NCBI GenBank assembly: GCA_017379935.1
Contig: JAFNVC010000028.1
Coordinates: forward strand, 1-64,000
Direction: 5' to 3'
Origin: Clostridia bacterium
GTDB taxonomy: Bacteria; Bacillota; Clostridia; Oscillospirales; Acutalibacteraceae
DNA: 64,000 bases
Below, piece by piece: positions 22,944-60,069 of the stretch. Below the pieces are notes generated by a model that saw only the letters and a list, made by a program, of their open reading frames with translations, did no database searches and was not told the origin of the DNA. The translations under genes and the position numbers were made by a program. Every line of letters starts with the position of its first letter. Positions within the stretch are counted from its first letter, which is position 1.

Positions 22944-23930
22944 ATGAAAGAGACAATAATCAAGTCCGTTACCGCTATCATTTGTGTTGTAGTTCTCTGC
23001 ATCACATCATCAGTAGCAATCGGCAACTACAGCGATGCTGTCAAGGAGGCTGCAAAGCTTGCTCCCACAGTATCAGCAGGCAGCAACGTGTCAACTGACG
23101 ACAACGCTGATGTTCCTTCAGACGACACAGCAGCTGACGTTCCTTCAGACGATACAGCAGCTGACGTTCCCGCTGATGACACAGTAACAGATGCTCCTGC
23201 AGCTGACGACACAGCAACAGACGCAACAACACCCGATGCAGGCACAACAGATGCTCCTGCAGCTGACGACAAGAAGCCTGCTGCTATGACAAAGGCTGAC
23301 GTTATCAAGCTCTTCAATGCAGAGACAGCTAAGGCTGCCAAGGGCTCTTACAAGATCACAAGAGGCGGTAAGTTCGTTAAGAACATCGATGTTGGTTCAG
23401 CAACAAACGCTCTTAATTCAATCATCCACGGCGTTGACAAGAATGCTTCTCTCGACTCAGTTGTCGGCGGCTTCATCGGTGTTAAGGCACAGCCCATGAC
23501 AGGTACAGTCAAGGCAGGCAAGGTTGACGGCATCGACGCTAAGTATGCTATCAAGGGTATGAGCCTTACTGAGGCTGATGTTACATCCTTCAAGGTAGAC
23601 GGCAACAAGTACACAATCACAATCAAGGATTGTACAACTCCGAACGCTTCAAGTGCATTGGCTCACGCTTCAAATGACTACATTACATTCTCCGAGGTTA
23701 ACCAGAGCATCGCTAACGAGGTTGGCAGCGCAGTTAAGGTTGTTGAGAACGAGTCAAAGGCAAACTACAAGAAGATCACATTTGTTGCAACTATCGTTGA
23801 CGGCAAGATGACAAACCTTGAGTATTCATACACATTCGATGCAACACTTAGCCTCAAGCTCGCTATTATCGGCGCAACAGGTACAGGTGAGGCTGCTATC
23901 ACAGGTAAGTACACAGACATCAAGTACTAA
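22944..23930 (+). CDS. Secreted protein with Asp/Ala/Thr-rich repeat linker, paralogue of 24798-25742
   Basis: No named family is recognised. The 328-residue protein has an N-terminal hydrophobic segment (about 8-27) that is nearly the same as in the protein at 24798-25742. A low-complexity acidic linker (about 50-112) of VPSDDTAAD-type nonapeptides follows. The folded C-terminal domain (about 113-328) is predicted beta-rich, with elements such as KVDGNKYTITIKD and VDGKMTNLEYSYTF. Codon use is strongly biased to GAC, ACA and GCT, suggesting high expression. GGAGGT precedes the ATG. It is probably exposed on the cell surface. Confidence 0.72.
   Translation: MKETIIKSVTAIICVVVLCITSSVAIGNYSDAVKEAAKLAPTVSAGSNVSTDDNADVPSDDTAADVPSDDTAADVPADDTVTDAPAADDTATDATTPDAGTTDAPAADDKKPAAMTKADVIKLFNAETAKAAKGSYKITRGGKFVKNIDVGSATNALNSIIHGVDKNASLDSVVGGFIGVKAQPMTGTVKAGKVDGIDAKYAIKGMSLTEADVTSFKVDGNKYTITIKDCTTPNASSALAHASNDYITFSEVNQSIANEVGSAVKVVENESKANYKKITFVATIVDGKMTNLEYSYTFDATLSLKLAIIGATGTGEAAITGKYTDIKY
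23112..23219 (+). repeat. 27-bp coding tandem repeats
   Basis: Four 27-bp units begin at 23112, 23139, 23166 and 23193. The first two differ at one base. They encode the acidic linker of the protein at 22944-23930 and may vary in copy number. Confidence 0.85.
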
Positions 23931-24741: not shown

Positions 24742-24771
24742 TTTACATATAAAAAAGTGATATGATAAAAT
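24742..24771 (+). promoter_or_regulatory. Promoter of the second secreted paralogue
   Basis: TTTACA (24742-24747) and TAAAAT (24766-24771), 18-bp spacer. Confidence 0.55.
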
Positions 24772-24797
24772 CAGTTAAAAAACAGGGGGTCATATCA

Positions 24798-25742
24798 ATG
24801 AAAGAAACGATTGTAAAATCAGTTATAGCTATGCTTTGTGTTATTGCGATTTGTATCACATCGTCGGCAGCTGTCGGCAAATACAGCGATGCTCTTATTG
24901 AGGCGGCAAAGCTTTCGGGCAGCACCTCTGCGGTCGGCGGCGGTACGGCTGAGAATGACACTGATACAGTAACACCCGATATCCCGACAGATGAAACGGA
25001 TGAAGCCGTTACTGACGCTCCCGCTGACGGCACGGATACTGTCCCCGAGGAAAACACACAGCCGGATGCTTCCGCTCCGGATACGGGCGTGACACAGCCC
25101 GAAAAGGACGAGACGGCGAATGCTCCGACATCTTACTCAAGGGAGCAGGCTGTCAGATTTTATACCGACAGTATGAAAAAATCCTTCACCGCACCGAAAA
25201 CAACAATCAAAGCAACCCAGACAATCGGAATCAGCGTTGATGAGATGGATCCGAAGATGGCTGAAAAGCTTGCAAAGAAGATTGTCAATGCTTATGCCAA
25301 GACTACGGAAAGCACGCGAAGCTTCGCCAAGGGAATTGCAACCGATGACGGTGAGGGCAAGGCGTCGGATCACGTTTTCCCCGCAGACCTTGACCCGAAG
25401 GGTGCAAAGACTGCGACGGTTACGAAGAAGGGCAACGATTATGAAATCAATATTCTGGTTGTACCCGAGGATGCTACGCTTGAAAAATTCCCCGTTTACA
25501 ACAGACAGTGCTCCTTCCCGCTCAACCTTGCAACGGTTGACCTCTTCGGTCTGACGATTACGCAGGCGGACTTCACCTACGAGGGAACAAAAATCAAGGC
25601 AACCGTCGGCGCGGACGGATATGTGAAATATGCGGAGGTTTATATGCCTCTTGCAGGTAAGGGCGGCGGAAACTTCATCGGTATCGGCGGCAGTGCAACC
25701 GTATCGGGATATATGAAGAAAACAGCAACATTTACATACTGA
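24798..25742 (+). CDS. Secreted protein, paralogue of 22944-23930
   Basis: The 314-residue protein shares its first 40 residues closely with the protein at 22944-23930 (both begin MKETI, then KSV, and continue to a YSDA element). It then has an acidic Thr/Pro/Asp linker (about 50-115) and a beta-rich C-terminal domain (about 118-314). That domain keeps the same order of elements (KGNDYEINI, then GADGYVKYAEVYMPL) but little identity. Function is unknown. GGGGGT precedes the ATG at 24798; an earlier in-frame ATG overlaps the promoter. A strong hairpin follows the stop. Confidence 0.72.
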   Translation: MKETIVKSVIAMLCVIAICITSSAAVGKYSDALIEAAKLSGSTSAVGGGTAENDTDTVTPDIPTDETDEAVTDAPADGTDTVPEENTQPDASAPDTGVTQPEKDETANAPTSYSREQAVRFYTDSMKKSFTAPKTTIKATQTIGISVDEMDPKMAEKLAKKIVNAYAKTTESTRSFAKGIATDDGEGKASDHVFPADLDPKGAKTATVTKKGNDYEINILVVPEDATLEKFPVYNRQCSFPLNLATVDLFGLTITQADFTYEGTKIKATVGADGYVKYAEVYMPLAGKGGGNFIGIGGSATVSGYMKKTATFTY

Positions 25743-46950: not shown

Positions 46951-47232
46951 ATGTCTGACAGAATTTATAAAATCAAGCCGAAATACATCCTGCGCGAAAT
47001 CGCGGGCGAGTATCTCGCAATCCCTCTTGAGGGTGCGGACGACAGCGCAACCTCGCAGATAATCATTCTTAATGAGGTCAGTTCGTTCTTCTGGGAAAGG
47101 CTTCAGCAGGGCGCGACAGAGGCTCAGCTTGTAAGTGATTTGACTGCGGAATTCGAGGTCACACGCGAAGAGGCTCAGGCTGATTTACAGGAATTTCTTA
47201 CAATGCTTGAAGAATCGGGATTTTTTGAATAA
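46951..47232 (+). CDS. PqqD family protein (RiPP recognition element)
   Basis: PqqD-like proteins bind the leader of a peptide substrate and present it to a radical SAM enzyme. The 93-residue protein has the winged-helix pattern of the family: beta strands to about 40, then LNEVSSFFWERLQQGAT, a second helix (VSDLTAEFEV) and a terminal helix (LQEFLTMLEESGFF). GGGAGG precedes the ATG, 12 bp after capG, so it shares the cap transcript. The likely partners, an HPr-kinase-like gene and a radical SAM gene, follow after a terminator and a new promoter. Confidence 0.88.
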   Translation: MSDRIYKIKPKYILREIAGEYLAIPLEGADDSATSQIIILNEVSSFFWERLQQGATEAQLVSDLTAEFEVTREEAQADLQEFLTMLEESGFFE

Positions 47233-47262
47233 AAACTGAATAAATATAAAAAAAGACAGCTG

Positions 47263-47297
47263 ACGCTTGCGGAAAACAAAATCTGCGGGCGTTTTTT
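47263..47297 (+). terminator. Terminator of the cap-PqqD operon
   Basis: ACGCTTGCGGA pairs, with G-U wobbles, with TCTGCGGGCGT, followed by TTTTT. Confidence 0.7.
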
Positions 47298-47332
47298 GTA
47301 TATTTTGGCAATAAAATAGAAAGGTGTAAACC

Positions 47333-47362
47333 TTGACACTTAAATGCTCACTGTAGTATAAT
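47333..47362 (+). promoter_or_regulatory. Promoter of the kinase-rSAM-VWA-peptide operon
   Basis: Consensus TTGACA (47333-47338), 18-bp spacer, perfect TATAAT (47357-47362). Confidence 0.82.
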
Positions 47363-47393
47363 AAAGTAGATTATAAGAGTGGGTTATTGTCCG

Positions 47394-48248
47394 ATGAAAA
47401 AGTATTATTCCGTTTGCCAACAGAATATTTGCATCGAATCCCCGTTTTTTCCGGATGAAAATCCGGATTGGAGGCTGTTCGAAATCGCACCGACGGATAC
47501 GGATATTTTTGTGAGCTGTCACTTGTGCGAGACGCTTCCGCCGTCATATCCGACGGAACGCGGTATAGGTAACGACACCTTTGTTTCTCTTGGTGACGGG
47601 GGCGTATGCAGACGTATTGATATGGCAATTCATCCGGGCGTAAAAACCTTTTATAACCACCTTGAAGGTAAATCGGCTGAGGCTTATTTTACAAAAGAAA
47701 GTCTGCCGATAATGATGGACTCACGCTATATGTGGAATTCGATAGCGGCGGCACAGCTTCTTTTGTCGCACGGCGCACTGTTTATGCACGCGTCGTATAT
47801 CGAGCATAACGGCAAGGCGATTCTCTTTTCGGGAAAATGCGGAATCGGCAAGAGCACGCAGGCGGCTCTTTGGGAAAAGCACCGCTCGGCGCGCATCGTC
47901 AACGGTGATAAAGCGGGCTTGCTTGTCACGGCTGAAGGTGTTTCAGCATGCGGACTACCGTTCTGCGGAACGAGCGGAATCTGCAATAACGTCACGATGC
48001 CGCTCGGCGCGATAGTCCTTCTCTCTCAGGGTGAAAATAACAAAGCAGAACGCGTTACGGGTGCTCAGGCGCTGGTCGATGTGATGTCGAATATTTATCT
48101 CGATTTCGCGGTGCCCAACGAGCAGCAGCTGTGCGTTGACCTGCTGTTACGTGTTTTTAAAAAAGTACCGGTGTTCCGATTGACGTGCACGCCTGACGAA
48201 AGAGCTGTCCGTGCGCTCGAGGAGGCACTCGGGAAGGAGGCGGTCTGA
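47394..48248 (+). CDS. HPr-kinase-like ATPase
   Basis: The 284-residue protein resembles the C-terminal kinase domain of HPr kinase and related PEP-carboxykinase-like ATPases. Walker A is GKCGIGKST (147-155), preceded by H132 in LFMHASYI, and FCGTSGICNN may be a substrate loop. The first 110 residues are not recognised. HprK-like proteins occur with PqqD in peptide-modification loci, and some phosphorylate lasso peptides. Here no lasso cyclase is present. The ATG at 47394 is chosen over a GTG at 47379 because GAGTGGG stands at a workable distance; this is a weak site. The stop overlaps the next start by one base (TGATG). Confidence 0.82.
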   Translation: MKKYYSVCQQNICIESPFFPDENPDWRLFEIAPTDTDIFVSCHLCETLPPSYPTERGIGNDTFVSLGDGGVCRRIDMAIHPGVKTFYNHLEGKSAEAYFTKESLPIMMDSRYMWNSIAAAQLLLSHGALFMHASYIEHNGKAILFSGKCGIGKSTQAALWEKHRSARIVNGDKAGLLVTAEGVSACGLPFCGTSGICNNVTMPLGAIVLLSQGENNKAERVTGAQALVDVMSNIYLDFAVPNEQQLCVDLLLRVFKKVPVFRLTCTPDERAVRALEEALGKEAV

Positions 48249-49357
48249 TGCCCTCAGAATATGACCGTCTGATCGACTCGCTTTTCACTAAGGCGGAAGC
48301 GACGGGTGTACCGCTTTCGGGTACGTTCGAGCTGACGTCAAGGTGCTCGCTGGATTGCAAAATGTGCTACATCCACCGCAAGGAGAATGACCGCGAAGCG
48401 ATGCAGTGCGAAAAGCCGACCGAATGGTGGCTTGAACTTGCAAGGACGGCGAAGGATGCAGGAATGTTACTGCTGCTGCTGACGGGCGGTGAGCCGCTTG
48501 TGAGGCGCGATTTCGAGGAAATCTACCTCGCGTGCCGTTCGATGGGCTTGCTCGTGAGCGTGAACACGAATGCGACGTTGATTGACGAAAAAAAGGTGCG
48601 GTTTTTCAAGGAAAATCCACCGCAGAAATTAAATATCACGCTGTACGGAGCGTCGGAGGAAACCTACGCAGACCTCTGCGGGGACGGCAAGGCGTACGGC
48701 AGGGTAATAAAAGCGATCCGCGCGTTGAAGGAGGCTGGAGTTAAGGTCAGGCTTAACTATACACTGACGCCGTACAACGCGAAGGATAAGGAAAAAATAT
48801 TTGAATTCGCAAAAGAGGAAGGTCTGGAGCTGCAGGCGGTGAGCTATATGTATCCGCCGGTAAGAGCGAAGGGCGCAGAGGACATCGAACGCTTGTCCGC
48901 GAAGGATGCGGCGGCGGCGCAGTTCAACTGGCAGCGCAAGAGGCTGGGCGACGAAACCTTCCGAAAGCTGCTCGAATTCAAGGTAAACAGCCCGATAGTA
49001 ACGACGGCTGAAGAAGGCTGCGGCGAGCGCATCAGCTGCAGAGCGGGCTCAACAGTGTTCTGGGTAACGTGGAACGGAGTGATGACTCCGTGCGGAATGA
49101 TGAACGAGCCGAAGGCGCAGATAGAAAAAGCAGAGGATTTTAGCGCGGCGTGGGAGAAAATCCGCGCAAGGCGTAAAAATATAATAATGCCGGTCGAGTG
49201 TGCGCGGTGCAGATGGCGCAGGATATGTGACCTGTGTGCGGCGGTATCGTACGCGGAGACGGGCAGATTTGACGGCAAGCCGCAATACGCGTGCGAGAAG
49301 GCGCACGAATACGGCAAGCTGTGTCAGGAGTTTTTGAACCCCGGCGAGAAAACATAA
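48248..49357 (+). CDS. Radical SAM/SPASM enzyme, probable peptide or protein maturase
   Basis: The 369-residue protein has the cluster motif CSLDCKMC (C33, C37, C40) and LLTGGEPLVRRDF for SAM binding. Its SPASM-type C-terminus carries many cysteines: CGERISC, then TPCGMM, CARCRWRRICDLC and YACEKAHEYGKLC. SPASM enzymes bind auxiliary iron-sulfur clusters and often modify peptides or proteins. GGAGG precedes the ATG, which overlaps the kinase stop. The gene is clearly GC-richer than its neighbours (39 of 60 bases at 48901-48960), which suggests a different origin. The downstream surface protein and peptide are candidate substrates. Confidence 0.9.
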   Translation: MPSEYDRLIDSLFTKAEATGVPLSGTFELTSRCSLDCKMCYIHRKENDREAMQCEKPTEWWLELARTAKDAGMLLLLLTGGEPLVRRDFEEIYLACRSMGLLVSVNTNATLIDEKKVRFFKENPPQKLNITLYGASEETYADLCGDGKAYGRVIKAIRALKEAGVKVRLNYTLTPYNAKDKEKIFEFAKEEGLELQAVSYMYPPVRAKGAEDIERLSAKDAAAAQFNWQRKRLGDETFRKLLEFKVNSPIVTTAEEGCGERISCRAGSTVFWVTWNGVMTPCGMMNEPKAQIEKAEDFSAAWEKIRARRKNIIMPVECARCRWRRICDLCAAVSYAETGRFDGKPQYACEKAHEYGKLCQEFLNPGEKT

Positions 49358-49393
49358 GTTTCGCAAGAGACGGAACTCACAGGAGGTAATTTT

Positions 49394-52300
49394 ATGAAAA
49401 CATCAAAGAGAATCGTATCATTTTTGCTTTCAGCGATAATGGTTGTAACAACCTTCCTCGCTGTCGGCCCGGTGTTTACGATCGAATCGGCTGCTGCTGA
49501 TACTCCGATAACAATCGGCCATATCACCCAGCAGAGAGTTGTTTTTGATGCGGACGGCAAGTACGATCTGTTATATGAAGGCTATCGTAACAGGTTTTTT
49601 ACCGGTGCAGAATCTAACGGTCCGACAAACTTTGTCATTCCCGGATTGGCAGAGAAGGACAACTATACTCCGCAGGGTATGACGTATTGGGCAGAGAAGG
49701 AATGGATTCTTATCTCAGCTTACCATGCTGCATCGAGCAACAAGAACAATTCTGTTATATATGCCCTTGATGCCAAGACAACGGAGTTTGTAGCATTGTT
49801 TAATATTCAAAATGCTGACGGCACATGGAACTATAGTCATGGCGGTGGTATCGCTGCGTCTAACTATAACTTCTACTATGCTGACTCTGCGTCGGGTTCG
49901 GATGAAGGTAGCCGAATAAGTTACCTTCCTCTTTCTGATATGGATGTAACACCCGGAACGGTGAAAACGATTAAAATATATGATTCTATTGAGTGTAGTG
50001 CGGAACTCAACGGCGCAAACACATCATACTGCTGTTACAATGAAGGTGTTCTCTGGACGGGCAATTTCCATTTCTGGAATGAAGACAAATATGACCAGTG
50101 GGCACACCCGGAGTATAAGAGCATGCTCGTCGGATACAGACTTAGCGGTAACGATTCAACTGAGGAATGGAACAATCTGACTAAAGCTGAAAACGGAGAG
50201 GCGAAATCGGACTGTGCGGGTAACCCGACATATGTAGTTGCGATTGACAACAGTATCGACCGTATTCAGTATGCGATGGTTGATAAGGGTAAACTATACA
50301 TCAGCCGTTCATGGTCTCGATATGAGTCAGACAACCACATACGAGAGCTTGATGTCTGTGATTTCGACCTTAATGATCCCGGTAACATAGAGATTACCAT
50401 AAATAACGTAAAAAGACGAGGACATTATGTAAGCTTGGATAATGTAACACGTTTTGGTGGAGGTAAAGGTGAAGCAGGCGCCAAAAAGTGTCTGTATATG
50501 GGCGAAGCTCTTTGTGTTATTGATGACTATCTCTATATTTTTGGCGAGGGTGCAGCGTATAACTATCGTGTGCTTAAATCAAATGATCACACTTGTGAAG
50601 AGCCTATCGATGTTATCTGGAAAATCGACCAGCATGCTATTATAGGCAATCACCGACCGGCTGAAGAGCTTGATGCCAGCCATTACGAAAAGGTGAACAG
50701 TCTCAGTGATATTACACCTGAGGATGAATATATTATTCTTCATAAATCTCAGCTTAAGGACCCTGTTACACAGAAGGAGATACTCTATCTGCTTAATTCC
50801 GATGGCGGTTACGGCATCCGCAAGCTTCCTAAGGATGATAATCCTACCTCGCTGAGCACAGGCGACTCTGTAGGTATGCTTCCGTATACTATCACAAGAT
50901 ATTCGGAAGAGGATAACGGAGAAATCCTCCATATTGAAAGCACGGATGACGAAAACCGTTCAATAAGATGGAAAATCAGCGGAGCAAATTCAGGCAATCT
51001 CAGAATTGCTAATGTGGATAATTATTACGAAAATCACCCGTATCTGTTCTTTACGGGTCGACATATTGTAATGTCATCGACAAGCAATACACTTTTGTCG
51101 GGAATGCAGCTGTTACCGGTTGAAGGTAAACCCGGCACCTTCTACATTGCAAGCACAAGAGCTAATTTCTATGAATCTTATCTCTGGTGTAATGACGGTA
51201 CTGTTCCCGAATATATAGATAAGTATACAAATTATTACCAGAGCTATGCATACAATTTAGGTAACTATAACGGCCACGTTGAGGTTACAGGTACATTCCA
51301 CCCGGATGCAACCGGTACGGCATACGGAAAAGGAGATCAGGGATCCGCAACAAAAGACCTTATAGGTACAGCCATTACCGAGGACCAGTATTATCTCGGC
51401 GAGTTCAACATTTACAAGAGAATAGAGAATCAGTCGGCATCTACTGCTGAGACCCGTGTGTATACCGATCTTGACCTTGCCTTGCAGGCGGACGGCACTT
51501 ATGACCTTACTCTTGAGGCTTATACAGTAGGTGATAAGCAGATCGCAAAAACAGAAAACAACTCAAAACCCACAGACTATGTTTTTGTTGTTGACGCATC
51601 CTCGAGTATAGCGTATGAGGAAGGTGATGGTAGACATGGAGATTCATCGGGATTCATACGTTGGGGCGGTACTGACAGACCAAATGAAGATTTGCGCTAC
51701 AATTCAATTGCGGCAGGTAAGATATATGCGCTTCATGCCGCTGACGGTAAATATTATAAATTAACGGTTGGTACAGATGTAGAAGGAGATGAGCCATCGC
51801 AACATGGTTGTGAGAGCAAATGCACTGTATGGATCTCTTATTGGCATGAGCCGACCCAAACAAGGTATTATGCAAATTATAAGGTGGGAGAAGATTGCAT
51901 AGCGACGTTTACAACAAATAGGCCCCAGAAAGGCAATGACGATGCTCTTAATATAGCTTGCAAACCGGATAAACTTGACGATAACAATCCGATTGTCTTA
52001 AAAAAATTCCAACACTTTGAAAAGTATACCGGTAATGCGAGCCGAAGGGCAGCTCTTAACACTCTTGTTATTGAAATGTCCAGACAGATTTTTGAACAGG
52101 ATACTAAGAATCGTGTTGCTTTTGTTCAGTTTGGCACATCGCAAAATGCGATTACGGGCTCTGCATGGCAGAATTCAGGCTTCTATACCAATTCTTCAAC
52201 ATCTATGATTAGCGCCGGTACCACGGCGACAAATGCACAGTATGCGGCAGCCTTCCATTCAGAGTCACAGTTTGCTAATCTTCAGCAAGCAGTTTTGACT

Positions 52301-55015
52301 ATGCCTGTAGGTGGTTCGGATAAACAGGCTGAGGTAGGAATGGATTTGGCAAATAAAATCCTCAAAAACAGCGGCTACAAGTATTCTGCTGATGATGAGA
52401 GAAATGCATGTGTTATTCTCATAACAGATAATGCCGCAGGATACAGCAATGATAAGAATCAGACAACCATAAATGCAACAGGCTGTTGTAATTCAACGGT
52501 TATGAATGCAAAATACATTAAAGATCAGCACGCTATTGTTCATACGATCAGATTGCGTGAGGATGCAAATCCGTCGGGCTTTGACGTTGACGGATATCTT
52601 TCCTGTGTATCATCAGAATACCCCGATGCGAGAAGAATGACAAACCGAGGTACAAAGAGTGCATTAAATATTGATTATACCCATAATCTGACTTCATCAA
52701 GCTTTGATTGTTTTGCGCTTTGTACGGAAATTTTCAATTCCATTCAGCCTAGTAAGGACTATACTACGATGAAGCTGGATGCGGATACATATATCCGAGA
52801 AAACATCAATCTTGAAGCCTTCAATATGGCCGTAGCAACGCCGGCTCTGATTGCTACGGCGGATGGTCACTATGACGGCTTAGGCAGATTGTATTTTGAT
52901 GAGCCTAAACCGGTTAGCGAATCTAGCGGCATTAAGTCTTCTATTACCACCGAGGCGGACGGAACAAGCTCTATCGTTGCTCACGGCTTCAACTTTACGG
53001 AACACTATCTTTCACCGGACAGAGCGAGCGGAACCGGACAAAAGCTTGTTATCAAATATTCAGGACTTACACTTAAATATAATCCGGACAGCACAAGTGA
53101 TTATATTGTTAATACCGCTATCGACAATCCTAACAAGACTGCGCTTTACAGATCTGAAGCGTATATGAAGGCGAATGATCCGTACAAGGGCTTCCCGTCA
53201 GAGCATCTGTCCGTTCCGCAGTACACATACGTTCTTGACTACGGTATTGATATGCTTGACAGAGATATTAACGGAAAGCTGATTTCTGTTGATACAGATT
53301 TGCGGAAGCAGAGCTCCTATAAAGACAGTGTGACTTCGGAAAATGCTCAGTTAGAGTTTGTTGACAATTCCGAGAACATGCTCTATCGCATTGGAACCGA
53401 TGCAACCGATATATCTAAGCAATACGTTCTTATCCAGCGACCTAACGGTGATTATGACTGGTTTGGCATTAATATTGTTCCTGCATCAAATGTTTATTAT
53501 GAAGATGCACAGATAACCGTACCTGACCGAACATCTTCAGATGAACACAAATGGACGACAGAAGGAACAGCAAGCTTTAATTCGCAGGCCGTTGAAATCC
53601 AGAACGATATTTACGGTTACGATAAGAATTACGCAAATGATGATTCGAATTTCTCCAATAACACGGCGCTTAAATCTGTCGTCAGTGAATCCAACAGACA
53701 GAGCGACAAGGCAACGTTTACCTTTACGGGTGAAGGCTTTGATCTGTATTCTGCCTGCGGCACAACAACGGGTGTTCAGGTTATTGCCATCAGAGATTCG
53801 AGCGGCGCTTTAGTGAAATCGTATGTCATTGATACCTATTATAATCAGGCGGACTATAACCAGACATTCACTCAGGTTCCGATCCTCAGATTCAAGTGCC
53901 CGGCAAACAGTACCGGAAGCACTTACGGCACATATACGGTTGAGTCCACCGCAGCATACCTTCCGAGTATTTCGGGCGCAATCAAGGCTCAGAGCGTTTC
54001 GACACAGCTGATCGACGAAAACGGTGTTGTTTCTTACCCCTCAGAATACGCCGAAACATATGAAAACGAAATTCTCAGAGAGCTTGGCTTCGAAGAACTC
54101 ATCGGAGAGGATGTAGAATTTATCAGCTTCAGCGATGATTCCGTTCTCAACGGCGGCGAGGGTCCGTTTGCGGTTGAAGAGGGATCCTTTACCACGCAGT
54201 CTGTAACAGAGCTCGAAAACTACATTGACGGCTACCGCATCTATAATCCTTGCGGAGATGACTCCGAAGTAATGGCTCATTATCCAAATTCGGAAAAGGG
54301 TGCGAAATATTATAACGTAATAGATATCCTTGATGATGCAGACAGCTTTGGCGGCAGCGCTTCTGATGGAATTTATTACGAAAACACAGGCAGTGTTCTT
54401 GAATCTGTGACATATAAATCTGTCGGAACACCGAAAAATGAATTCTATCTCAAGGCATCAAATGCAAATACCTTATCGTTCAAGATTCCGAATTGGGATA
54501 AGAATACGATGAGTGTAATGGTTTCAGCTCGAGCTGCATACGGCAGCCCGAAATTAAAGGTACACACCGGCGAAATGGCTATTGACAGCAAGACGGAAAT
54601 GTATTATAATGTTACGGATTTCATTACAGATGATGGAAAACTTGTTATCAGCAATTCTGGCGATGGTCTTTTAGCACTTAACAATATCAAGATAGTTGAT
54701 CCGTCAAGTGCTCCGAGCTTTACCTTCGAAACAGCAGGTACCGCTGAAGAAATTCAGCTTTTGCTGGATGTTGATGCAGAGTTGGTAGATTTCAATGCTC
54801 CGAAGGTTGAAACAGAAGACTATCCGCTTCCGGAACCTGACATTTTTGTTCCGGGTGTTTCAGATGATTCGGATGACGACGCAGATGTTCCTGATGAAAA
54901 ACCTGAAGAACCCACCAATGACGGCTTCTTTAACAAGGTTGATAATTTCTTTACAAATACCGGAAACTTCTTCAAGAACATCATCAAAAAAATCACCTCA
55001 TTTTTTAAATCTTAA
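49394..55015 (+). CDS. Giant secreted von Willebrand A domain protein
   Basis: The 1873-residue protein has a signal peptide (about 1-35, ending near SAAAD). Residues 45-690 are beta-rich with propeller-like strands and two to three unrecognised modules. A von Willebrand A domain spans about 725-1130: the MIDAS start DASSS is D734-S738 and the second site is T1011-D1012 in LITDNAAG. About 110 residues (740-850, with cysteines in GCESKC) are inserted directly after the first strand. Further beta-sandwich modules lie at about 1150-1780. An acidic Pro-rich linker leads to a Phe/Lys amphipathic tail (FFKNIIKKITSFFKS). No LPXTG motif is seen. GGAGGT precedes the ATG. Its function may be adhesion; it could be a substrate of the upstream enzymes. 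Confidence 0.82.
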   Translation: MKTSKRIVSFLLSAIMVVTTFLAVGPVFTIESAAADTPITIGHITQQRVVFDADGKYDLLYEGYRNRFFTGAESNGPTNFVIPGLAEKDNYTPQGMTYWAEKEWILISAYHAASSNKNNSVIYALDAKTTEFVALFNIQNADGTWNYSHGGGIAASNYNFYYADSASGSDEGSRISYLPLSDMDVTPGTVKTIKIYDSIECSAELNGANTSYCCYNEGVLWTGNFHFWNEDKYDQWAHPEYKSMLVGYRLSGNDSTEEWNNLTKAENGEAKSDCAGNPTYVVAIDNSIDRIQYAMVDKGKLYISRSWSRYESDNHIRELDVCDFDLNDPGNIEITINNVKRRGHYVSLDNVTRFGGGKGEAGAKKCLYMGEALCVIDDYLYIFGEGAAYNYRVLKSNDHTCEEPIDVIWKIDQHAIIGNHRPAEELDASHYEKVNSLSDITPEDEYIILHKSQLKDPVTQKEILYLLNSDGGYGIRKLPKDDNPTSLSTGDSVGMLPYTITRYSEEDNGEILHIESTDDENRSIRWKISGANSGNLRIANVDNYYENHPYLFFTGRHIVMSSTSNTLLSGMQLLPVEGKPGTFYIASTRANFYESYLWCNDGTVPEYIDKYTNYYQSYAYNLGNYNGHVEVTGTFHPDATGTAYGKGDQGSATKDLIGTAITEDQYYLGEFNIYKRIENQSASTAETRVYTDLDLALQADGTYDLTLEAYTVGDKQIAKTENNSKPTDYVFVVDASSSIAYEEGDGRHGDSSGFIRWGGTDRPNEDLRYNSIAAGKIYALHAADGKYYKLTVGTDVEGDEPSQHGCESKCTVWISYWHEPTQTRYYANYKVGEDCIATFTTNRPQKGNDDALNIACKPDKLDDNNPIVLKKFQHFEKYTGNASRRAALNTLVIEMSRQIFEQDTKNRVAFVQFGTSQNAITGSAWQNSGFYTNSSTSMISAGTTATNAQYAAAFHSESQFANLQQAVLTMPVGGSDKQAEVGMDLANKILKNSGYKYSADDERNACVILITDNAAGYSNDKNQTTINATGCCNSTVMNAKYIKDQHAIVHTIRLREDANPSGFDVDGYLSCVSSEYPDARRMTNRGTKSALNIDYTHNLTSSSFDCFALCTEIFNSIQPSKDYTTMKLDADTYIRENINLEAFNMAVATPALIATADGHYDGLGRLYFDEPKPVSESSGIKSSITTEADGTSSIVAHGFNFTEHYLSPDRASGTGQKLVIKYSGLTLKYNPDSTSDYIVNTAIDNPNKTALYRSEAYMKANDPYKGFPSEHLSVPQYTYVLDYGIDMLDRDINGKLISVDTDLRKQSSYKDSVTSENAQLEFVDNSENMLYRIGTDATDISKQYVLIQRPNGDYDWFGINIVPASNVYYEDAQITVPDRTSSDEHKWTTEGTASFNSQAVEIQNDIYGYDKNYANDDSNFSNNTALKSVVSESNRQSDKATFTFTGEGFDLYSACGTTTGVQVIAIRDSSGALVKSYVIDTYYNQADYNQTFTQVPILRFKCPANSTGSTYGTYTVESTAAYLPSISGAIKAQSVSTQLIDENGVVSYPSEYAETYENEILRELGFEELIGEDVEFISFSDDSVLNGGEGPFAVEEGSFTTQSVTELENYIDGYRIYNPCGDDSEVMAHYPNSEKGAKYYNVIDILDDADSFGGSASDGIYYENTGSVLESVTYKSVGTPKNEFYLKASNANTLSFKIPNWDKNTMSVMVSARAAYGSPKLKVHTGEMAIDSKTEMYYNVTDFITDDGKLVISNSGDGLLALNNIKIVDPSSAPSFTFETAGTAEEIQLLLDVDAELVDFNAPKVETEDYPLPEPDIFVPGVSDDSDDDADVPDEKPEEPTNDGFFNKVDNFFTNTGNFFKNIIKKITSFFKS

Positions 55016-55027
55016 GGAGGGTGAAAA

Positions 55028-55285
55028 GTGAAAAAATATATGAAGCCCGTCTTCAACATTGCGGCAGCTGTTCCTAATCCGCATCCCGGCAACTCCTGCA
55101 CGACTTCGCAGGAAGATATGACCTTGATTGCACAAATTTTAGGAATGACCTGGGAGGAGTTGTCTGTATCAAAAGCTTTTGCATTATCTGAAGGCTGCGA
55201 AACCGTAGTTCCGTTGGATATGTATTGCAAATTCACATCTGTTTCAGCAACAGGCTCAGCCGGCGTAAAAGCCTTCCTTTCATAA
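55028..55285 (+). CDS. 85-residue three-cysteine peptide, candidate RiPP precursor
   Basis: The gene starts with GTG, seven bases after AAGGAGGG, and 12 bp after the giant VWA gene. The product begins MKKYMKPVFNIAAAVP, a KKYxKPxF pattern often found in small precursor peptides of Firmicutes. It then has NSCTTS with C24, a predicted helix (about 30-50, IAQILGMTWEELS) and a C-terminal part with C57 and C67 in SEGCETVV and DMYCKFT, ending SAGVKAFLS. No signal peptide is visible. The operon with a radical SAM/SPASM enzyme and HPr-kinase-like protein, and the nearby PqqD, make a modified peptide likely. Chemistry is unknown. It might instead be an unmodified small protein. Confidence 0.78.
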   Translation: MKKYMKPVFNIAAAVPNPHPGNSCTTSQEDMTLIAQILGMTWEELSVSKAFALSEGCETVVPLDMYCKFTSVSATGSAGVKAFLS

Positions 55286-55305
55286 AAAATCCAAATAATT
55301 TTTCC

Positions 55306-55340
55306 GCACCCGTGTGATTCGTCACACGGGTGTGTTTTTT
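55306..55340 (+). terminator. Terminator of the kinase-rSAM-VWA-peptide operon
   Basis: GCACCCGTGTGA, TTCG loop, TCACACGGGTGT and a T run. Confidence 0.92.
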
Positions 55341-55412: not shown

Positions 55413-55447
55413 ATAATTAAGTATTTATGTAAAATCGGAGGGGTATG

Positions 55448-56179
55448 ATGTTTGATATTCACTGTCACATTTTGTACGGTCTTGATGACGGTGCTGACAG
55501 CCTCGACGATTCAGTAAAAATGATTTCTCTTGCCTACGAGGGCGGTACGCGTGCGATCATTGCAACCCCGCACTGCAATGTTCCGAACTCCTACCGCAAT
55601 TACCGTTCGCCGCTCTTTGATGAGCGCCTTGCGCAGATTTCAGAAAAGCTCGCACGTCAGAAAATTGACGTCAGACTTTATCCCGGCCAGGAGGTTTTCT
55701 GCTCCGGCAGACTTATCTCCATGCTCCGTGAGGGTAAGATTATTACGCTGAATTCCTCACGATACATCCTCGTGGAATTTGATTTCACCGAGAATTCGGC
55801 TTCAGCTTATGTTAAGCTTGAGCAGCTTGTTGCGGAGGGTCTCGTTCCTGTTGTTGCACATCCGGAGCGCTATGCCTTCGTCTGTGAGGAGCCGGATGCC
55901 GCGATGCGGATGAAGGATATCGGCTGCCTTCTTCAGGTTAACAAGGGAAGCATCAAGGGTGCCTTCGGCAGGTCTGCTTTCGTTGCTGCGAGACATATTC
56001 TCAACGAAAGGCTTGCTGATTTTGTAGCAAGTGACGGCCACAGCCCTTACGTCAGGACTCCGTACCTCGCGGACGCCTTTGAAATTGTTTGCGAAGCTTG
56101 CTCAATGGATTATGCCGAAATGCTTTTTGAGGAAAATCCGCTTGCTGTTATTGAAAACAAAGAGATTTTCCCGTTTTAA
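55448..56179 (+). CDS. CpsB/YwqE-type tyrosine-protein phosphatase (PHP family)
   Basis: The 243-residue manganese-dependent phosphatase reverses tyrosine autophosphorylation of capsule BY-kinases. PHP motifs visible are FDIHCHILYGLDDGA at the start, ATPHCN, PGQEVF, VAHPERY and VASDGHSP. The length equals CpsB and YwqE. GGAGGGG stands before two ATGs; the second (55448) has better spacing and gives the usual MFDIHCH start. It opens an operon with the two BY-kinases it should act on. Confidence 0.93.
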   Translation: MFDIHCHILYGLDDGADSLDDSVKMISLAYEGGTRAIIATPHCNVPNSYRNYRSPLFDERLAQISEKLARQKIDVRLYPGQEVFCSGRLISMLREGKIITLNSSRYILVEFDFTENSASAYVKLEQLVAEGLVPVVAHPERYAFVCEEPDAAMRMKDIGCLLQVNKGSIKGAFGRSAFVAARHILNERLADFVASDGHSPYVRTPYLADAFEIVCEACSMDYAEMLFEENPLAVIENKEIFPF

Positions 56180-56213
56180 AAGAATATACCTATCCTACAG
56201 AGGTGTTTTATAA

Positions 56214-57035
56214 ATGATCAGAATTTTAAGAATAGCGGTGCTCGGCCTTTTTGTTGTCGCGACTGTTTTTTCGGGTGTGCTGTTCATCAAGGACAAGGTC
56301 ACAACCGACACTACAATTCCGAAGATTACAATCGAAGAAGAGGTTCTCGAGGTTGCGCTTAATGCTAAGAACGGTGATTTGCTCAAGGGTGTTACTGCTG
56401 CAGACGAGAAGGACGGAGACCTCACGGATAAGGTCATAATTGAGTCGATTTCGAAGTTTATCGAAAAGGGTGTCTGCAAGGTTACCTATGCGGTCTGCGA
56501 TAATGACAACAATGTTGCGACGGCTGTCCGAAAGGTACGCTATAAGGGCTATAAGTCACCCGAATTCAAGATGACGGGCTCACCGTGCTACTCGCTGTAT
56601 GAGTATATTGACCTTTTTGATATCATCAGCGCGAAGGATTGCATTGACGGCGACATCACAAAGGATATCGTCATCACATCGAAGGATTTTGCAGGCTCAA
56701 CCGCGGGTGTTTTCAACATCGAAGCAACCGTTACCAACAGTAAGGGTGACACAAGCAACCTCAAATTCCCGATGGTTGTTGAGGATCGTACTCCGGGCGC
56801 TCCCGTAATCGAGCTTAAAAACTACCTTGTTTATACATCGGTCAACAAGAAGATTGATTTCAAGCAATATCTGCTGAAGGCAACGGATAATCACGACACT
56901 GACCTGACTCAGGCGGTCAGAATTGAAACAAACGTTGATTTCAGCAAAGAGGGAACGTACTCCGTGCATTATTACGTAACGGATGAGGCAGGCTCTCAGG
57001 GACACACAATGCTTATAGTGACTGTAGGTAAGTAA
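56214..57035 (+). CDS. Membrane-anchored protein with three DUF5011-like Ig domains
   Basis: The 273-residue protein has one hydrophobic anchor (about 7-26) and an extracellular part made of three beta-sandwich repeats. Each carries a D-x-D-[LI]-T turn: EKDGDLTDKV, CIDGDITKDI and HDTDLTQAVR. These resemble bacterial DUF5011/HYR domains that mediate binding or form stalks. It lies between the phosphatase gene and the kinases and four bases before the first kinase gene. Such a gene is not part of well-known cps operons. It might bind the nascent polymer or link polymerase parts; this is inference. Confidence 0.78.
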   Translation: MIRILRIAVLGLFVVATVFSGVLFIKDKVTTDTTIPKITIEEEVLEVALNAKNGDLLKGVTAADEKDGDLTDKVIIESISKFIEKGVCKVTYAVCDNDNNVATAVRKVRYKGYKSPEFKMTGSPCYSLYEYIDLFDIISAKDCIDGDITKDIVITSKDFAGSTAGVFNIEATVTNSKGDTSNLKFPMVVEDRTPGAPVIELKNYLVYTSVNKKIDFKQYLLKATDNHDTDLTQAVRIETNVDFSKEGTYSVHYYVTDEAGSQGHTMLIVTVGK

Positions 57036-58545: not shown

Positions 58546-60069
58546 ATGAATCAGACAGAAACAAAAATGAATAACAGGGAAAGACCCGACTCGAATGAGG
58601 TCAAGATTTACCTCAGCGACCTTTGGAACGGTGTCAAAAAGCTGTGGTGGGTGTGCCTGCTGATTTCCGCGATTTTGGGCGCGTCAATGTTCATCAAGGC
58701 ATATTCGTCCTATGTACCGATGTATACGTCATCCGTAACACTGACAGTTACAACCCAGAAGTCATCGTCGGTCAACAGCATTTCGGTTTATTCCTTCTAC
58801 TACGATGCATCAACCGCGGCACAGCTTGAGACCACATTTCCGATAATACTCAGAAGCAACCTTCTCCAGGATGCAATCTGTGAGGATATGGGAATTGACT
58901 ATGTACCTGCGTCACTGAACGCGACGGCTGTATCGGGAACGAATATGTTTACGATGACGGCAACCGGCAGAGAACCGCAGATGACATACGATGTGCTTCT
59001 TTCTGCGATAGAAAAGTTCCCGTCGGTTGCGAAATATGCTGTCGGTAATATCAGACTTGAGCTTATCTCGAGTCCGCAGGTCCCCGAAGCTCCGTCGAAC
59101 AGCTCGGACTATATGGACAAAGCGGTAACAGGTGCTCTTATCGGTCTGATTATCGGCGTGATAATTATTTTGGTCTATATGGTTATGCGAAGAACGATAA
59201 AGACCAAGGATGACATAAAGAAGGAGCTCAACGTTGAGCTTCTCGGCTCAGTCCCCGAGGTGCATTTCAAGAAAAGAACGAAGCAGGTTGACGAATCCGT
59301 GCTGTTTACGAACAACAAGACCGGAACAAGCTTCAAAGAGTCTCTCAGAGTGCTTCGGAATCTTTTTGCAAATGCTCTCAAGAAGAACGAAAAGGTGGTT
59401 ATGGTTACCAGCACCGCTCCCGGCGAGGGAAAAACAACCGTTTCGACCAACCTTGCGCTTGCTCTTGCGGATTACGGCAAGAAGGTGCTTATCGTTGACG
59501 CTGACCTGCGCCATCCGAGTGTTCTCGGTCTCCTCGGTGAAAATGAAGAAAACATTGACTTTTTTGCCGTGACACCGCAGTACAAGATCGGCGAGCTTGA
59601 AAGGTTCGATGTTTCCTATATGTCTCTTATTAAGCAAAATAAGGATAAGCTTTTCCTTGATGTCGAGGAGCTTAAGGAAATCTTCAATACCGTACGCGAT
59701 GATTATGACTATATTATCGTCGATACCCCGCCTTGCGGTCTTGTTTCCGACTCCTCCTATGTTGCACAGGCTGTTGATGCTGTTGTTTACGTTGTGCTTC
59801 AGGATACTGTCAGAATTTCAAAAATCCGCGACGGTATCGAAAGCCTTCTTTCAACGGATGCCAAGGTGCTCGGCTGTATTCTCAACGGGGTCAAGTCCGG
59901 TCTTTCGGGCTACGGCTACGGTTATGGCTACGGTCGTTACGGCTATGGTTACGGAAAATATGGTTATGGTTATGGCTACGGTTACGGCTATGGATACGGC
60001 TACGGAGAAAAGAAAAAGCCGTCATTTATGCGACCGAAAGCAGAAGAAAAAAAAGAACAGCCGCAATAA
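58546..60069 (+). CDS. Fused Wzz/BY-kinase with Gly-Tyr tail (second copy)
   Basis: The 507-residue paralogue of the preceding protein has membrane helices at about 34-53 and 190-212 and a PQVPEAPSNSS stretch before the second. It has canonical kinase motifs: TSTAPGEGKTTVS, VLIVDADLRHPS and YIIVDTPPCG. The C-terminus is a striking run of alternating Gly and Tyr (about 455-487) ending in a Lys-rich segment. These tyrosines are the probable autophosphorylation sites. The start, four bases after the preceding stop, has a weak ribosome site, indicating coupling. Confidence 0.93.
   Translation: MNQTETKMNNRERPDSNEVKIYLSDLWNGVKKLWWVCLLISAILGASMFIKAYSSYVPMYTSSVTLTVTTQKSSSVNSISVYSFYYDASTAAQLETTFPIILRSNLLQDAICEDMGIDYVPASLNATAVSGTNMFTMTATGREPQMTYDVLLSAIEKFPSVAKYAVGNIRLELISSPQVPEAPSNSSDYMDKAVTGALIGLIIGVIIILVYMVMRRTIKTKDDIKKELNVELLGSVPEVHFKKRTKQVDESVLFTNNKTGTSFKESLRVLRNLFANALKKNEKVVMVTSTAPGEGKTTVSTNLALALADYGKKVLIVDADLRHPSVLGLLGENEENIDFFAVTPQYKIGELERFDVSYMSLIKQNKDKLFLDVEELKEIFNTVRDDYDYIIVDTPPCGLVSDSSYVAQAVDAVVYVVLQDTVRISKIRDGIESLLSTDAKVLGCILNGVKSGLSGYGYGYGYGRYGYGYGKYGYGYGYGYGYGYGYGEKKKPSFMRPKAEEKKEQPQ
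59908..60006 (+). repeat. Coding GGY-TAY repeat (Gly-Tyr tail)
   Basis: About 16 near-tandem GGN-TAY hexamers encode the Gly-Tyr tail of the second BY-kinase. Two interruptions encode Arg and Lys. It is prone to length change by slippage. Confidence 0.85.

Follow-up and report, generated by a model that had tools for sequence, protein, structure and literature searches.

The enzymes of RiPP pathways have mostly been studied for the secreted antibiotics, signals and cofactors that they make. The locus described here raises the question of what such enzymes do when they are encoded beside a giant secreted protein and a small cysteine-bearing peptide. It lies in a stretch of 64,000 nucleotides from a Clostridia bacterium (assembly GCA_017379935.1, contig JAFNVC010000028.1, positions 1 to 64,000 of the forward strand), hereafter called the window. 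ORF, promoter and terminator checks delimited a cassette unit at 47333-55334 comprising an HprK-like kinase, a radical SAM/SPASM enzyme, a giant of 1873 residues and a peptide of 85 residues. It is flanked upstream by a polysaccharide unit ending in a PqqD-like gene and downstream by a CpsB/CapC-Ig-Wzz-Wzz-glycosyltransferase run (Table 1). On balance, we consider it probable that this is a RiPP-type maturation cassette serving a small peptide, which would act together with a giant surface protein of modular build.

The first-pass annotation had read the four genes as one transcription unit with its own promoter and terminator, and both elements were recovered where it had placed them. Comparing the window with the sister species G014, we found the -35 and -10 hexamers to be identical and the 18-base spacer to have diverged. 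Both terminator hairpins fold far below shuffled sequences (z-scores of -6.6 and -5.3). The kinase stop and the radical SAM start indeed overlap, with one base common to both, and the peptide gene has its own ribosome-binding site within the gap after the giant. The PqqD-like protein was confirmed just upstream in the polysaccharide unit (Pfam PqqD, E 3.3e-17), set apart from the cassette by its own terminator at 47262-47293. Another perfect match to a promoter, at 54582, was rejected as a coincidence, as it sits within the conserved coding motif TEMYYDIT of the giant.

Table 1. Position and supporting evidence of the features discussed, in window coordinates
Feature	Coordinates	Strand	Evidence
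Stand-alone leader-binding protein resembling PqqD (93 aa), closing the polysaccharide unit upstream	46951..47232	+	Pfam PqqD E 3.3e-17; present in G014
Intrinsic terminator between PqqD and cassette	47262..47293	+	Hairpin folding versus shuffles
Promoter, TTGACA-18-TATAAT	47333..47362	+	Sequence match; hexamers kept in sister species G014
HprK-like kinase, 289 aa from GTG	47379..48248	+	ScmC/HprK_rel_A matches; profile versus HPr kinase structures
Radical SAM/SPASM enzyme	48248..49357	+	Radical_SAM E 1.2e-23 (Pfam); CX3CX2C plus seven more invariant Cys
Giant secreted protein, 1873 aa	49394..55015	+	ORF; signal peptide by inspection
VWA-like region within the giant, approximate limits, DxSxS near residue 734	51572..52783	+	Alignment; VWA_2 in 6 of 8 members, the window's not among them
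YYED domain of the giant, residues 1343-1619	53420..54250	+	Conserved across relatives
Amphipathic C-terminal tail of the giant	54938..55012	+	By inspection
Precursor peptide, 85 aa, YxKP at residues 4-7, Cys 24/57/67, C-terminal F-x-S	55028..55285	+	Profile, alignment, Ka/Ks
Intrinsic terminator of the cassette	55305..55334	+	Hairpin folding versus shuffles
Recurrent neighbours in the polysaccharide locus, a CpsB/CapC phosphatase and an Ig-like membrane protein	55445..57035	+	Pfam; neighbourhood comparison

All four cassette genes are under purifying selection relative to G014, with Ka/Ks values of 0.21 for the kinase, 0.11 for the radical SAM enzyme, 0.14 for the giant (where Ks is saturated) and 0.17 for the peptide. 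Synonymous divergence from G014 was lower for the kinase and radical SAM genes (47379-49357; Ks 0.47-0.48) than for the peptide and the CpsB and Ig neighbours (0.91-1.39), hinting at a recent exchange of the former two. Elsewhere in the window, two similar secreted proteins, paralogues as judged by eye, surround a phosphoglycerate-mutase-like gene (22944-23930 and 24762-25742), and a Wzz/BY-kinase-like protein carries a long Gly-Tyr repeat tail (about 59880-60020).

The HPr-kinase-like label of the first-pass annotation was borne out, although the window kinase taken alone gave weak matches (ScmC, E 3.5e-5; HprK_rel_A, E 6.8e-5; Pfam, E 0.19). A profile built from 40 kinases, 27 of which match ScmC, aligned with HPr kinase structures (E 0.018) at the invariant His137, Walker A motif and Asp177, which we take to be the catalytic residues of HprK. 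Comparison with relatives makes the ATG at 47394 a likelier start than the GTG. For the radical SAM/SPASM enzyme, besides the Radical_SAM match (E 1.2e-23), ten cysteines (C33, C37, C40, C264, C282, C318, C321, C327, C330 and C349) are invariant across 41 sequences, and the closest solved structure in a profile search was SkfB (6efn, E 2.5e-27). A viperin or defence reading of this enzyme was discarded, the PADLOC pVip match (E 1e-13) reflecting the common radical SAM core and other radical SAM/SPASM models scoring higher. As the radical SAM domain begins near residue 27, an N-terminal RRE could not be accommodated; this is in keeping with a PqqD that would act in trans, as for PqqE, and PMC8326336 describes a stand-alone PqqD working with that SPASM enzyme. 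Kinase and radical SAM enzyme form a single ORF in locus L179, and kinase and PqqD in L123. In Fusibacillus kribbianus (L044:8085-11125), a kinase ORF that appears truncated, with transposase-like genes alongside as judged by eye, adjoins a full-length radical SAM gene.

The predicted ORF for an 85-residue peptide with three cysteines was confirmed, and it is very likely a real gene since it is under purifying selection (Ka/Ks 0.17) and the promoter hexamers are kept while their spacer has diverged. We collected a first set of 18 peptides, the window's and 17 others selected on length and on the N-terminal pattern Y.[KR]P. All have YxKP-like N-termini, 17 have at least three cysteines and all 18 end in Ser; this last feature is not circular, because 17 of the 18 were picked by length and N-terminal motif and not by their ends. 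Profile A1 and larger neighbourhoods then gave a wider set of 98 fetched loci plus the window, with 53 different peptide ORFs once identical peptides were removed (L089 and L090, on contigs already covered by L036 and L035, were not double-counted). Ser is C-terminal in 50 of these 53, the background being 43 of 914 among ORFs of at least 150 residues in the same loci; as the peptide profile includes C-terminal columns, matches later than the first 18 lean towards Ser ends. Phe stands two residues before the end in 42 of the 53, and 49 have at least three cysteines. The three without a C-terminal Ser are the short ORFs of L180 and L187 and the match in L109, which we regard as false (no cysteine, no enzymes nearby) and which is still counted among the 53. 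None of the 18 peptides matched an NCBIfam precursor family, save one at chance level (E 0.095). A third peptide type, CWAYxKNGK...SWS, adjoins radical SAM and kinase genes at L042:890-1246 and L107:7369-7710, and L125:1557-1838 looks similar.

The giant has 22 cysteines. It had been annotated as a secreted VWA protein, and of this the length, the signal peptide (by inspection) and, for its clade, the VWA label stood: VWA_2 matched six of eight aligned VWA-like regions (best 1.8e-5), the seven relatives in this alignment having been chosen for a MIDAS-like motif. The window's region is not among the six, Pfam VWA gave no match in the window giant itself, and a PDB profile search with the VWA-like region returned nothing significant (best E 0.018). 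Judged by these alignments, VWA is a feature of the clade of the window giant and optional among relatives. The common part of the giants is YYED, a domain of about 270 residues close to the C-terminus, which is present in 31 of the 33 ORFs upstream of peptides (duplicates L089 and L090 included; the misses are L102, of 564 residues, and the false hit L109). Similarity was detected between YYED domains in 821 of 930 ordered pairs versus 128 of 930 for the N-terminal parts. From these mostly dissimilar N-termini the giant appears to be modular, its N-terminal parts being swapped between loci. In seven relatives scanned whole with Pfam, Cna_B, Big_3, List_Bact_rpt and DUF7601 were above cut-off in different members, and FIVAR and VWA were below.

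For YYED itself, PDB profile searches returned nothing significant and Pfam no convincing family (two stray matches, in one member each). No LPXTG was seen by eye in the inspected C-termini of the giants, many of which have a short amphipathic tail. One YYED cysteine is conserved in the window-type clade and missing from most giants outside it. It might pair with an odd cysteine of the peptide, but it occurs as well in the peptide-less giant L157 and in L049, whose peptide has four cysteines; its conservation may be only clade history. The window genome encodes two more YYED giants, at G000:C32:9425-10213 (L157) and G000:C18:10924-11679 (L158), with near-alike C-terminal ends of another type, and no peptide gene was recognisable next to either. 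In another genome two YYED giants (L171, L172) themselves end in SSTSWS.

The first-pass annotation had left it to be seen whether these genes stay together elsewhere or never co-occur. They recur together in many loci and genera. A first scan of named records with the radical SAM enzyme, by plain BLAST on picked ORFs, gave 29 loci, of which 26 have the kinase (a fragment in L044), 17 a relative of the giant, 13 PqqD and 8 the peptide; the PqqD figure is an undercount, ORF picking having hidden that of L033. In the wider set, where contig ends and ORF picking lower all neighbourhood counts, the radical SAM enzyme and the kinase each lie within 11 kb of 45 of the 53 peptide ORFs and PqqD within 11 kb of 38; for the other 15, contig ends included, it was not found. 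An ORF of at least 900 residues is within 11 kb of 44 peptides, and at least two polysaccharide markers occur in 15 of the 53 neighbourhoods. A YYED giant was found at most 1.2 kb upstream of the peptide in 35 of 53 cases, in 32 of these at most 44 bases away, and within 11 kb in 41. Among the 12 peptide ORFs with no YYED match within 11 kb, L050, L111 and L112 are near a giant that lacks YYED, L042 has the third peptide type, L109 is false, L180 is a short ORF, and for L102, L107, L115, L116, L125 and L179, some of them at contig ends, the fetched stretch contains no giant. Conversely, several other YYED giants have no recognisable adjoining peptide. Of the marks of a RiPP pathway, a short precursor adjoining modifying enzymes and a PqqD leader-binding element are both present.

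A further recurrent neighbour, c10, was found beside the cassette in 28 different ORFs; its N-terminus is hydrophobic or resembles that of a lipoprotein, and it carries the pattern EDGS...GGITYR. By inspection it looks membrane-anchored and extracytoplasmic, and its recurrence points to the envelope. It is absent from window-type loci in the 53-peptide set, a search without positive control found none in the window genome, and a PDB profile search gave nothing significant and no convincing family name was found. Six polysaccharide loci from the same genus (L118, L119, L121, L122, L124 and L126) hold a cassette of another type, with PqqD, radical SAM enzyme, kinase, ABC exporter and a conserved YxAP peptide of about 90 residues, plus an S26-like protease and a nucleotidyltransferase in some. 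The six YxAP peptides do not end in Ser despite the kinase and radical SAM genes nearby, so such kinases need not act on a terminal Ser.

Co-distribution was analysed in 300 genomes of the family, calling YYED matches strong at E <1e-20 and radical SAM matches at 1e-40, or strictly at <1e-110 (1e-20 and 1e-110 were chosen once the match lists were known). YYED was found in 29 genomes (22 strong), the radical SAM enzyme in 38 (26 below 1e-110) and the peptide in 17, or 16 without the false hit. The 22 strong-YYED genomes all carry the radical SAM enzyme at the strict threshold, versus 4 of the 278 others; these 4 lack YYED, and the 7 genomes with weak YYED matches are not among the 26. All 16 true peptide genomes have both YYED and the radical SAM enzyme. 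Because 15 of the 22 fed the YYED profile, the fair part of this result is confined to the remaining 7; each of these has the radical SAM enzyme, and 4 (G133, G161, G166 and G228) were first found via YYED. Among 216 genomes of the class, YYED occurs in 2, namely the window genome and G072, which likewise contributed to the YYED profile, both with the radical SAM enzyme; the latter occurs in 8, six of them without YYED, and the peptide profile matched 3. As the genomes are related, none of these counts are independent events.

Across 31 loci (2000 permutations; L107, L109, L125, L180, L187 and identical peptides left out), peptide distances correlated with those of YYED at 0.76, of the kinase at 0.66 and of the radical SAM enzyme at 0.64, and the partial correlation with YYED given the radical SAM enzyme was 0.60; this tracking may be due to adjacency alone. 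The window genome has a single radical SAM enzyme at the threshold used. Since its two further YYED giants have no adjoining peptide, the peptide may, if it serves giants at all, serve several of them in trans.

Gene linkage and conserved motifs are solid, and from these and the co-distribution we infer each chemical step, the export and the docking in the following scheme. PqqD would bind the N-terminal YxKP leader of the peptide, the radical SAM/SPASM enzyme would cross-link or otherwise alter its Cys-bearing core, likely through thioethers, and the HprK-like kinase would phosphorylate its C-terminal Ser, a modification that is probable by analogy with lasso peptides. The product would be exported and then act at the envelope, most likely docking to YYED of the co-transcribed giant as a ligand, anchor or small subunit; a surface role together with the giant is what we consider the best reading.

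The main competitor, possible though rather unlikely, is a conventional RiPP, secreted as an antimicrobial or a signal, whose genes occupy one locus and use one promoter with an adhesin gene; the giant would then be an independent neighbour. Peptides whose fetched stretch contains the enzymes and lacks a giant (L179, L102 and L125), the YYED-less giants near the L050, L111 and L112 peptides, and the ABC exporter, S26-like protease and nucleotidyltransferase genes of some loci all fit a secreted product. Against this reading, the peptide gene follows a YYED giant at a distance of at most 1.2 kb in 35 of 53 cases. These include the pairs of L092, L093, L098 and L165, which have no enzymes in the fetched stretch (L095 is beside a kinase only); in the five genomes concerned (G229, G162, G260, G216 and G315) the radical SAM enzyme is on another contig. 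The peptide also tracks YYED more closely than it tracks the enzymes, and the radical SAM enzyme is present in 22 of 22 genomes with a strong YYED match.

The first-pass annotation had proposed that either the peptide or the VWA protein is modified and exported to the surface. Modification of the peptide with a surface role stood as the best reading; the giant fared poorly as substrate. We regard it as improbable that the enzymes modify the giant, with the peptide as regulator or chaperone, even though it has 22 cysteines, is co-transcribed by layout and keeps a YYED cysteine in the window-type clade, one also present in the peptide-less L157. The giant carries a signal of the Sec type and lacks a YxKP leader, its YYED cysteine is missing from most members outside the clade, and its N-termini are similar in 128 of 930 ordered pairs while the peptide motifs are constant. 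The common YxKP N-terminus, the conserved cysteines and the near-invariant C-terminal Ser, set against these dissimilar N-termini, make the small peptide the likely substrate.

Still less likely is a cofactor or redox peptide of the PQQ or mycofactocin type made from a small precursor. PqqD with a SPASM enzyme follows the logic of PqqE (PMC8326336), but a near-invariant C-terminal Ser with a kinase, a layout with a giant secreted protein, and 18 precursors without an NCBIfam match beyond the chance-level one (E 0.095) do not suit it. A chance neighbourhood of unrelated genes, to which the separate unit of PqqD in the window would lend itself, is hardly credible given the recurrence of kinase, radical SAM enzyme, giant and peptide in many loci and genera and the fusions in L179 and L123.

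Returning to the small tailored peptide, we compared its cassette with known systems. In paeninodin, the C-terminal Ser is phosphorylated by a homologue of HPr kinase, and in pseudomycoidin the phosphate reportedly receives a hexose from a nucleotidyltransferase (PMC8498205 for both). Paeninodin-type lasso systems and the cassette have in common HprK-like motifs and C-terminal Ser substrates (here from sequence only), a nucleotidyltransferase in some cassette relatives as in pseudomycoidin, and a stand-alone RRE protein, B1 in lasso systems (same source). The cassette differs in its radical SAM/SPASM enzyme and giant secreted partner. The lasso leader protease Transglut_core3 (PF13471) had no match in the window genome, which is 84.84% complete; the model was positive in 2 of 14 control genomes.

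With the sactipeptide and ranthipeptide maturases SkfB, CteB and PapB the cassette shares a radical SAM/SPASM enzyme (CX3CX2C plus SPASM cysteines) and a Cys-bearing peptide; it differs by the lack of a built-in RRE, the kinase and the absence of an NCBIfam precursor match. Like SynChlorMet clusters it has a ScmC-like kinase, a ScmD-like PqqD and ScmE- and ScmF-like radical SAM matches, but with bit scores far below the NCBIfam cut-offs (ScmC 23.3/125, ScmD 31.1/100, ScmE 75.6/400, ScmF 71.3/400) and one radical SAM enzyme; to our knowledge, no giant secreted protein is among the named SynChlorMet models. PqqD/PqqE of the PQQ pathway likewise combine a stand-alone PqqD with a SPASM enzyme, and differ from the cassette in the precursor, the added kinase and scores that are below cut-off here. 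As the defining features of both failed, the cassette belongs neither to the lasso peptides nor to SynChlorMet; by its gene content it is a variant of RiPP systems. We recognised no paper describing it in full-text searches, outside whose scope lay most subscription papers and all preprints.

A more specific version of the preferred reading can be put forward only tentatively: the tailored, C-terminally phosphorylated peptide would be a structural part of the surface, docked or joined to YYED of giant adhesins and perhaps tied to exopolysaccharide. An NTP_transf_5 nucleotidyltransferase is encoded at the end of the window's polysaccharide gene run (G000:C1:80562-81809) and in some relatives; presumably it and the pseudomycoidin nucleotidyltransferase are of one family. 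No close relative of the recurrent exporter was found in the window genome (best 23%; genome 84.84% complete).

Taken together, the data suggest a role for a tailored peptide at the cell surface and not only as an antibiotic. If true, a peptide family whose C-terminal Ser hardly varies, joined by three tailoring proteins and a giant with an exchangeable front, would bring RiPP chemistry into the cell-surface biology of Clostridia, several cassette-bearing members of which come, by their record titles, from animal gut samples. The cassette also makes it testable whether the HprK-like kinases of non-lasso RiPP clusters phosphorylate a terminal Ser.
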